Of a stretch of DNA of 64,000 bases, positions 5,599 to 8,223 are shown in pieces. The stretch spans positions 682,001 to 746,000 of the forward strand of contig NZ_BEWB01000002.1 in NCBI RefSeq assembly GCF_003112555.1. Reading direction: 5' to 3'. A program made the position numbers and the translations under genes. The stretch comes from Streptomyces coelicoflavus. GTDB taxonomy: Bacteria > Actinomycetota > Actinomycetes > Streptomycetales > Streptomycetaceae. A model generated the notes under the pieces. The model made no database searches and was not told where the DNA came from. It was given only the letters and a program-made list of their open reading frames with translations. How positions within the stretch are numbered: position 1 is the stretch's first letter; the number at the start of each line of letters is the position of its first letter.

Positions 5599-5648
5599 TC
5601 GTGATCGTGGGCGCGAGTCACGGCGGACCGAGGAGGAAGACACCCGTT

Positions 5649-6068
5649 ATGCCCATCCAGCAGTCCGAAGTCCTCTACACCGCCGTCGCCACCGCCGAGA
5701 ACGGCCGCGACGGCCGGGTCGCCACCGACGACGGCAAGCTCGACGTCGTCGTGAACCCGCCCAAGGAGATGGGCGGCAACGGCGCCGGCACCAACCCGGA
5801 GCAGCTGTTCGCCGCCGGGTACAGCGCCTGCTTCCAGGGCGCGCTCGGCGTCGTGGCCCGTCAGGAGGGCGCCGACATCTCCGGTTCGACCGTCACCGCG
5901 AAGGTCGGGATCGGCAAGAACGACGACGGCTTCGGCATCATCGTCGAGATCTCCGCCGAGATCCCGACGGTCGACGCCGCCACCGCGCGGTCGCTGGTGG
6001 AGAAGGCCCACCAGGTCTGCCCGTACTCGAAGGCGACCCGCGGCAACATCACGGTGACGCTCGTCTGA
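5649..6068 (+). CDS. ohr: Organic hydroperoxide resistance protein (Ohr/OsmC family)
   Basis: 139 residues, the usual Ohr length. The two redox cysteines are visible in YSACFQGAL (about residue 60) and in HQVCPYSKATRGN (about residue 124), and the Arg of the active site is in the latter motif. Ohr reduces organic hydroperoxides to alcohols in the cytoplasm using lipoylated partners. It follows the electrophile-detoxifying reductase by 125 nt with its own upstream inverted repeat. Start ATG at 5649 after AGGAGGAAG. Confidence 0.94.
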   Translation: MPIQQSEVLYTAVATAENGRDGRVATDDGKLDVVVNPPKEMGGNGAGTNPEQLFAAGYSACFQGALGVVARQEGADISGSTVTAKVGIGKNDDGFGIIVEISAEIPTVDAATARSLVEKAHQVCPYSKATRGNITVTLV

Positions 6069-6125
6069 CCGGGGCCGTGCCGGGACCGGAAACGGTCCGG
6101 CGCGCCGACCGGTAGAGTGCCGCCC

Positions 6126-6950
6126 ATGCGTGATCTTGGGGCGGGATTCGGCCACCTGATGAAGGGCCAGCGCTGGGTGGCCCGGCACGGCCGGAGCTAC
6201 GGCTTCGGACTCGTCCCGGGCCTGATCACCCTGGTCCTGTACGTGGGCGTACTGATCGCGCTCGCGCTGAGGGGCGAGGACTTCGTCGGCTGGGTGACCC
6301 CCTTCGCCGACGACTGGTCGAGCCCCTGGCTCGGGCTCTTCCGCGGCTTCCTCACCGCCGTGCTGTTCGCCCTCGCCCTGCTCCTGGCCGTCCTCACCTT
6401 CACCGCGGTCACCCTGCTGGTCGGCCAGCCCTTCTACGAGGCCCTCTCCGAGCGCGTCGACCGCGACGTCTCCCCGGACGGCACGGCTCCAGTGTCCTCC
6501 CTGCCGCTCTGGCGCGAGCTGTGGATCTCCGGCCGTGACAGCCTGCGGATCCTGGTCCGGGCCGCCGTCTGGGGCGTGCTGCTCTTCGCGCTCGGCTTCA
6601 TCCCGGTCGTCGGCCAGACGGTGGTCCCGGTGGTCGGCTTCTTCGTCACCGGCTTCTTCCTCACCGAGGAGCTGGCCGCCGTCGCCCTCCAGCGCCGCGG
6701 CGTCGAACTGCGCGAGCGCCTCGCCCTGCTGCGCTCGCGCAGGATGCTGGTCTGGGGCTTCGGCACCCCGCTGGGCGTGTCCTTCCTGGTGCCGTTCGTC
6801 GCGGTGTTCCTGATGCCGGGCGCGGTCGCCGGCGCCACGCTCCTCGCCCGCGAACTGCTGGGCGAGGAGACCCGAGACGGCGCCGGCGACCCGTCCGGCG
6901 GCGACACTCCCGACCCGGCCGTCAGCCCCGGTCCGGCCCCGGGGCACTGA
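6126..6950 (+). CDS. EI24/CysZ-like integral membrane protein
   Basis: 274 residues, with about five hydrophobic segments (near 28-48, 75-105, 145-165, 168-190 and 215-240). The start MRDLGAGFGHLMKGQRWVAR and the motif TLLVGQPFYEALSERVD are typical of the EI24-domain family that includes the sulfate permease CysZ. Transport of sulfate is not certain. A TAGAGT box at 6113-6118 lies 7 nt before the ATG, suggesting a leaderless transcript. The 3' end overlaps the convergent peptidase-like gene by 29 nt. Confidence 0.85.
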   Translation: MRDLGAGFGHLMKGQRWVARHGRSYGFGLVPGLITLVLYVGVLIALALRGEDFVGWVTPFADDWSSPWLGLFRGFLTAVLFALALLLAVLTFTAVTLLVGQPFYEALSERVDRDVSPDGTAPVSSLPLWRELWISGRDSLRILVRAAVWGVLLFALGFIPVVGQTVVPVVGFFVTGFFLTEELAAVALQRRGVELRERLALLRSRRMLVWGFGTPLGVSFLVPFVAVFLMPGAVAGATLLARELLGEETRDGAGDPSGGDTPDPAVSPGPAPGH

Positions 6951-8223
6951 CCGCCACGGCCACGATCGCCCGCGTCTGCGCCACGATGTCCAGCCGGTTG
7001 CGCACGAACTCCGGGTCGGTGACCGCCCCCGTCGCCGGATCGGTGTTCCCCGTCCCGAACTGGAGCACCGGCGTGTGCACGTGCCCGCCCGGCAGCGTGC
7101 CGTGCAGCCCGAGCCGGTCCCGCAGCAGCGTCGCGCGGTAGGCGATCTCGTTGGAGAGGTAATTCCCGCCGCCGCCCTCCCGGGCCGTCGAACCGGGCGT
7201 GGGCCCGTCCGGCCGCACGACCGCTTCGGTGCCGCCCGCCGGGATCTCCGTCACCCGCGTGTTGTCGTACACCGGGAAACGGCCCGTGTCCGCGGCCGTG
7301 ATCGCCGCGTACGGCAGCGTGGTCGTCGTCCACTGCGGCTGCGAGGCGGGATCGGCCACCGGGACCGTCTCCGTGCGGGAGACGTTCTCGTTGTCCGGGA
7401 AGCCGCCCCGCCAGGCCCCGTTGGTCCGCTCCACGTCGAAGCGTCCGACCCGGCCCTGGCTCACCGTGGTGAACAGATCCACCCGCGGCAGATACGGCCG
7501 CAGCGCCCGCTCCACCACGCCCTGCGCGAAGTCCTCCCAGCGCACCGGGAACACGGCCGTCTCCACCCGCGCGGGACCGTCCGGGGTGTCGATCACCGTG
7601 CCGTCCAGGGCGAGCGCGACGGCGCCGGACGGGTTGGAGATCCGGATGTCCCGGTCCAGGGTGAACGGGTCGAAACCGGTGAGCAGCACCCGCTTCACGC
7701 CCTTGCCGCCGCCCTTCCCGTGCCCGTCGCGCGGCAGGCGGAGGTCGCTCTGCCCGCGGGAGGTGCGCTCCAGCTCGGCCAGCAGCGCGGCCCGCTGCCG
7801 CTCGCCCAGCCCGAACCCGGGCTCCCAGGTGCGCAGTTCCCGCGTCATCGCGAGCCGCGCCCAGTACAGCGGCCGGTCGTCGTCGCGGCTGAGGTCCCCG
7901 CGGGCCGGCCCGCGCCCCTGCACCCGGTCCACCGCCCGCCGCCACAGCGCCGCGCCCTCGCGCGCCACCACGGCACGCGCCTCGCCGTAGGTGTCCGCCC
8001 GCCCGAGCTTCCGGGCGAACGCCGGTGCCACCGCGGCGAAGCCGGAGCGCCGCAGGATCTCCCCGGGCACCTCCCCGTCGAGCCGCCGCTCCTCGACGGT
8101 CGGCGCGGGGGCGGTGCCCGCCGGGGGTGTCGCCGCCGCCGTCGTGGGGGCGGCGAGTGGGGTGGCGAGCCCCGCCACCAGGGCCAGTCCGAGTACGCCG
8201 ATCCGAACACGTATGGGTCTCAA
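6922..8223 (-). CDS. Secreted pyroglutamyl-peptidase-like protein with Ser in place of catalytic Cys
   Basis: 433 residues from a TTG start preceded by GGAAGG; the frame upstream has no better start. A signal peptide follows (hydrophobic GVLGLALVAGLATPLA, cleavage near APTTAAA). After a linker, the C15 peptidase fold begins with RVLLTGFDPF near residue 185. The acidic motif FDVERTNGAW and PDNEN match the Glu region of pyroglutamyl peptidase I, and GHVHTPVL matches the His region. The nucleophile motif, usually YLCN, reads NYLSNEIAY, so the cysteine is Ser (about residue 357). It may be a non-catalytic binder or use Ser. Family assignment is firm; activity is doubtful. Confidence 0.82.
   Translation of the reverse strand: MRPIRVRIGVLGLALVAGLATPLAAPTTAAATPPAGTAPAPTVEERRLDGEVPGEILRRSGFAAVAPAFARKLGRADTYGEARAVVAREGAALWRRAVDRVQGRGPARGDLSRDDDRPLYWARLAMTRELRTWEPGFGLGERQRAALLAELERTSRGQSDLRLPRDGHGKGGGKGVKRVLLTGFDPFTLDRDIRISNPSGAVALALDGTVIDTPDGPARVETAVFPVRWEDFAQGVVERALRPYLPRVDLFTTVSQGRVGRFDVERTNGAWRGGFPDNENVSRTETVPVADPASQPQWTTTTLPYAAITAADTGRFPVYDNTRVTEIPAGGTEAVVRPDGPTPGSTAREGGGGNYLSNEIAYRATLLRDRLGLHGTLPGGHVHTPVLQFGTGNTDPATGAVTDPEFVRNRLDIVAQTRAIVAVAVSAPGPDRG

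Follow-up and report, generated by a model that had tools for sequence, protein, structure and literature searches.

Classical pyroglutamyl peptidase (Pcp; MEROPS family C15, clan CF, PF01470) is a short single-domain protein without an export signal. A bare change of its catalytic Cys to Ser yields an inactive form of the enzyme. In a 2025 review, clan CF is described as consisting of one family with a Glu-Cys-His triad (PMC12445089). Among the open-access papers listed, none described a serine form of C15 in its title or at the start of its abstract. Pyroglutamyl-peptidase domains were counted among polymorphic toxin and PVC-system domains in a 2012 survey (PMC3482391). In Shewanella xiamenensis, a gene named "peptidase C15" was reported beside blaOXA-48-like genes and followed by an sprT-family gene; the available text does not mention its nucleophile (PMC3480492).

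Here, a relative of Pcp with Ser at the nucleophile position was analyzed in a 64,000-nucleotide stretch of the Streptomyces coelicoflavus genome (the window; contig NZ_BEWB01000002.1, positions 682,001 to 746,000). The open reading frame at 6922-8223 lies on the minus strand, starts with TTG at 8223, ends with a stop codon at 6922-6924, and encodes 433 amino acids. The TTG start is credible, since the corresponding position is Met in 12 of 20 homologues (alignment A1). The features of the gene are as follows.

6922 to 8223, minus strand: whole gene, TTG start, 433 amino acids, no Cys
8131 to 8223, minus strand: putative export signal, residues 1 to about 31 (sequence; crude hydrophobicity rule)
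7729 to 8097, minus strand: N-terminal helical domain, residues about 43-165 (alignment A3; AlphaFold2)
6925 to 7695, minus strand: pyroglutamyl-peptidase-like catalytic domain, residues 177-433 (profile and fold comparisons)
7429 to 7431, minus strand: Glu265, equivalent of the catalytic Glu (hhalign; Glu in 169 of 179 sequences)
7153 to 7155, minus strand: Ser357 in YLSN, position of the catalytic Cys (hhalign; Ser in 173 of 179, Cys in 0 of 179)
7075 to 7077, minus strand: His383, equivalent of the catalytic His (hhalign; His in 169 of 179)

Residues 1-31 have the appearance of an export signal, with an Arg-rich start, a hydrophobic core, and an AxA-like end. The export and the long N-terminal extension proposed in an earlier sequence-only reading of this DNA were borne out by the sequence and, as a prediction, by a crude hydrophobicity rule. 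That reading had also considered that a Cys elsewhere in the structure might occupy the active site. The protein contains no Cys at all, and therefore no other Cys is able to replace Ser357.

The family to which the window protein belongs shares with Pcp the fold, the order of Glu, nucleophile, and His, and the GF(D/E)PF and GxxHxP motifs. It differs from Pcp in having Ser for Cys, an N-terminal helical domain of about 120 residues, an insert between Glu and the nucleophile, and usually a predicted export signal. In the 37-row alignment A3, W94 and the DDR-LYW residues (115-117 and 119-121) are invariant, and a long variable insert precedes Ser357. AlphaFold2 predicted six helices for the N-terminal domain, with a mean pLDDT of 86. 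When this domain alone was submitted to Foldseek, no match was obtained at an E value of 0.001 or better. Its best structural Z score was 7.7, to a designed protein, so that it has no clear known fold, which does not imply that the fold is novel.

Pfam Peptidase_C15 matched residues 177-284 with an E value of 2.2e-4 and 21.8 bits, just under the cut-off of 22.7. The scores of three NCBIfam Pcp models were 13.5 to 17.8 bits, far short of their cut-offs of 199 to 274. At an E value of 0.01 or better, the Pfam model was found in 31 of the 37 family members in alignment A3, and some members exceed its cut-off, such as a gene of the plasmid pOXA436 (L205; 33.7 bits). For hhalign, a profile of 56 non-redundant family members was compared with a profile of 11 short Pcp sequences. 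The probability was 97.7%, and Glu265, Ser357, and His383 fell on the catalytic Glu, Cys, and His, respectively. The recognizable C15 Glu and His, and the YLSN in place of YLCN, both pointed out in the sequence-only reading, were thus placed at individual residues. When PDB sequences were searched with the family profile, all matches were Pcp (11 distinct sequences; best E value, 1.1e-4). In two of the PDB alignments, the family YLSN was aligned with the YLSN of a Pyrococcus chain. Related PDB entries mention an engineered form without cysteine in their titles, and on this ground we assume that these Pyrococcus chains are of that kind.

The AlphaFold2 model built from 80 Streptomyces-type sequences had a mean pLDDT of 69. 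The N-terminal domain and the core were good, and model positions 224-269 and 278-319 were poor. The model is poor near Glu265 and in the loop preceding Ser357, where the geometry of the triad cannot be read; the predicted Ser357 (model position 322) lies at the start of a helix and His383 (348) within a strand. A Foldseek search with the whole model returned nothing at an E value of 0.001 or better, and Pcp was not ranked first. The 1000 best Foldseek chains were then realigned (VIA-align). Rows 1-23 of the realignment were all Pcp, with Z scores of 10.9-13.0, and unrelated folds followed, with 9.3 in the next row and less further down. We identify a predicted pyroglutamyl-peptidase fold, which is supported by both the profile and the fold comparisons. 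Of the features that mark C15, the Pcp fold and the catalytic Glu and His were found, and the catalytic Cys, the short single-domain form without an export signal, and a score above the curated cut-offs were not. Because the defining Cys is absent, the family was not filed under C15, and we describe it as a serine-bearing sister branch with the same fold.

The sequence-only reading had treated the Ser as a peculiarity of one protein. This part did not stand, as Ser is standard in a two-domain family that occurs in several groups of bacteria. The nucleophile motif was YLSN in 88 of 88 matched loci, including the window copy (5 of 93 loci were unmatched). With alignment A3 as the profile, 187 distinct rows were matched, and 8 partial rows were set aside, which left 179 full-length sequences including that of the window. 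They cover actinobacteria, Burkholderiales, a plasmid gene of probable Shewanella origin, and Bacteroidota; within the family, identity to the window protein reaches down to about 32%. Ser357 was present in 173 of these, Cys in none, and Glu265 and His383 in 169 each. The full set of Ser, Glu, and His was found in 166 of 179 sequences, and in 66 of 76 after thinning to 80% identity.

In the sequences with an incomplete set, the loss of Ser accompanied that of His. Three sequences keep Ser and His and have Asp or Gln for Glu. Ten sequences have lost His383; six of them are also without Ser (replaced by Ala or Phe), and four keep it. Ser was lost in 6 of the 10 His383-less sequences versus 0 of the 169 His-bearing ones (Fisher p = 5e-9, not corrected for kinship). 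All 13 odd sequences retain His381, which stands two positions away from His383, and the loss of His383 is therefore specific. On a maximum-likelihood tree of 79 rows (L251 stands outside it), the fewest changes were four for Ser, three for His, and three for Glu. Among three to four independent pairs, Ser and His changed in the same direction in 2.6 to 2.9 on average and never in opposite directions, the events being too few to reach 0.05 in this test. Losses of Glu and His were linked by the plain Fisher test and showed no linkage in the tree-based pairs. In general, the sequence evidence for coupling of Ser with His is good though phylogenetically thin, and that for Glu rests on conservation.

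Except for one Tenacibaculum sequence with Asp for Glu, all odd sequences fell into a single clade with a support of 100/100. This clade X contains 28 of the 179 rows, with near-copies assigned by best match, and triad residues are changed in 12 of them. Outside clade X, Ser was found in 151 of 151 sequences, His in 151 of 151, and Glu in 150 of 151, with Asp in the exception. A stretch resembling an export signal was present in 142 to 144 of the 151 sequences outside clade X versus 0 of 28 inside, by our own crude hydrophobicity rule, the range depending on the upstream reading distance. Ser is still borne by 22 of the 28 leaderless members. The idea that Ser serves as an oxidation-proof nucleophile for export was set aside as at most a partial explanation, given these Ser-bearing leaderless members. 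Within clade X (e.g., L172, L164, L243, L249, and L251), Ser, Glu, and His have decayed repeatedly with the rest of the protein kept, and these proteins may have a non-catalytic job. In L251, a broken-up row outside the counts, all three residues are lost, with Pro, Pro, and Leu at the positions of Ser, Glu, and His. The partial loci L143, L195, L207, and L253, also outside the counts, have Ser and His together with Glu or, in L207, Asp.

Phe184 was found in 75 of the 76 non-redundant members and Phe or Tyr187 in 73 of 76; both belong to the GFDPF motif, whose Phe residues we take to line the Pcp pocket. Gln256, presumably near the pyroglutamate pocket, is kept in 64 of 76 members. The remaining 12 members have Arg, Glu, or Met at this position, and therefore specificity may vary.

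The family is also carried by plasmids. The profile matched 8 of 72,556 plasmid records, with YLSN in 8 of 8, in Tsukamurella, Streptomyces, Kitasatospora, Burkholderia, a member of the Comamonadaceae, Enterobacter, and Tenacibaculum. The Streptomyces and Kitasatospora genes are annotated as "pyroglutamyl peptidase"; of the others, five are labeled as hypothetical proteins and one is unannotated. By our own reading of the sequence, the N-termini of the Burkholderia and Comamonadaceae members contain lipobox-like motifs (LAGC and LSAC). On the Enterobacter plasmid pOXA436, the family member (L205, 5773-6930) lies between blaOXA-436 and an sprT-family gene. It carries YLSN together with the Glu and the His, and in the matched region its identity to the window protein is about 39%. 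The order of neighbors is the same as that described for the Shewanella "peptidase C15" gene (PMC3480492). From the common neighbors, the pOXA436 gene appears to be the counterpart of the Shewanella gene, which was compared by its description.

On a Tenacibaculum finnmarkense plasmid, the family member (L206, 5176-6960) forms the C-terminal part of a 594-residue protein. It stands directly behind a VgrG-like gene with type VI baseplate-injector domains and is overlapped by a gene of 186 residues (L206, 6926-7486) without a Pfam match. Such an arrangement is typical of a type VI effector with its immunity protein, and the 186-residue product could be such an immunity partner. By its place in a type VI secretion locus, the Tenacibaculum member resembles the polymorphic toxin and PVC-system domains of the 2012 survey (PMC3482391).

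From the conservation pattern, we consider it likely that the window protein is an active enzyme that uses Ser357 for catalysis. In the proposed mechanism, Ser357 would act as the nucleophile of an exported hydrolase with the clan CF fold, His383 would serve as the general base, and Glu265 would orient His383. Ser357 would form an acyl-enzyme, and the substrate would be an N-terminal pyroglutamyl group or a similar cyclic amide. The N-terminal domain with its DDR-LYW residues would be constantly paired with the catalytic domain and would probably shape the substrate site.

A trivial origin of the Ser, by a sequencing or frame artefact or by a stray mutation of one strain, has a negligible probability and is refuted by the YLSN of every matched locus and the Ser of 173 of 179 sequences. 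The sequence-only reading had left the choice between a serine variant and a protein that binds pyroglutamyl termini. A non-catalytic exported protein for binding or sensing, which kept the pyroglutamyl pocket when the Cys-to-Ser change ended catalysis, would agree with the inactivity of engineered Ser forms of classical Pcp and with the retained pocket Phe residues. The changed triads of 12 of the 28 clade X members also indicate that the fold can be kept without catalysis. However, if the enzyme were dead, nothing would explain why, outside clade X, His is kept in all 151 sequences and Glu in 150 of them, over a range of identity down to about 32%, or why Ser disappears only together with His. 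We thus regard a purely binding protein as unlikely, and the serine variant has gained from the same counts. Between a dead pyroglutamyl-binding protein and an active Ser-His-Glu hydrolase, we favor the latter, because a Ser-His catalytic pair would give the joint loss of Ser and His. The near-total retention of the triad in divergent, mostly exported members, combined with joint decay in the leaderless branch, likewise argues for an active serine enzyme.

An active serine enzyme with another reaction, or with a substrate other than pyroglutamate, such as an amidase, esterase, or transferase working on cell-wall or other peptides, overlaps with the favored hydrolase, since it makes the same Ser-His-Glu claim with a different substrate. 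The additional N-terminal domain with DDR-LYW invariant in 37 rows, the long variable insert before Ser357, and the replacement of Q256 in 12 of 76 members all speak for this alternative. So do the varied settings (secreted, lipoprotein-like, leaderless, and in the type VI locus of Tenacibaculum), and a pure exopeptidase would be an odd type VI weapon. Against it stand the retained pocket residues of the Pcp GFDPF motif, and a different substrate is a serious candidate with somewhat less than an even chance. From the sequences, the pocket residues would argue for a pyroglutamyl-like group, and the added domain and the varied settings would argue for caution.

With less assurance than for the activity of the window protein itself, we lean toward the view that clan CF has another branch besides the Cys family, built of two domains and distributed over several phyla. 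This branch would have a Ser-His-Glu triad and be mostly exported, with recruitment to a type VI secretion locus in Bacteroidota and repeated non-catalytic decay in the branch without signals. If this is true, the serine branch would offer a natural case of how a nucleophile is exchanged inside one fold. Short relatives with Cys and degenerate ones that lack the Ser would be at hand for comparison, and testable residues are named by the present analysis. Current gene labels, for example "pyroglutamyl peptidase" and "peptidase C15", would then need correcting, and so would the name given to the gene beside blaOXA-48-like genes.

The genome of the window also contains a separate classical Cys Pcp (G000:C7:444726-445319); thus, the window gene is not a simple replacement. 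In a phylum sample, 9 of 396 genomes matched the family profile, namely, eight of the window's genus and G316, in which the profile picked up the classical Pcp. The family is therefore patchy at the phylum level. Among the 12 genomes of the window's genus in this sample, with the window's own included, eight have the Ser gene, five a full-length classical Pcp, and three both. Short classical Pcp was present in 25 genomes of the phylum sample, and the nucleophile was Cys in 25 of 25. In G008, of the same class, the classical Pcp is split over two frames (L125 and L131, G008:C11:831046-831664). Matches were obtained in 51 of the 150 genomes of the family sample, and of the 38 listed, 27 belong to the window's genus. 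The class sample gave 44 of 345, again including G316, and the family of G608 gave 41 of 150.

Several candidate matches were discarded. YVSN in four short Pcp genes (L118-L121) was due to a regular expression that matched an upstream stretch, and the alignment shows Cys as the nucleophile. The single-sequence matches in G108, G134, G141, and G220 were weak, were not recovered by the profile, and were attributed to chance. A phage origin was also rejected, as the phage collection held no relative and the 34 pattern matches among viral contigs included 0 relatives.

In the window, an EI24-family gene (6117-6950, plus strand) is convergent with the gene at 6922-8223 on the minus strand, and the 3' ends overlap by 29 bases. 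In 79 of the 80 Streptomyces-type loci, the fetched stretch includes an EI24-family gene, the orientation being read in the window only. An aldose 1-epimerase gene was found in the fetched stretch of 47 of the 80 loci; in the window, it is located upstream on the same strand with a gap of 261 bases. This EI24/epimerase neighborhood was considered as a functional clue, and no function was drawn from it. Possibly by coincidence, the serine-C15 gene has an OsmC-family gene nearby in the window (5640-6068, plus strand) and again in seven loci that belong to one other genus (L167-L170, L173, L174, and L177).
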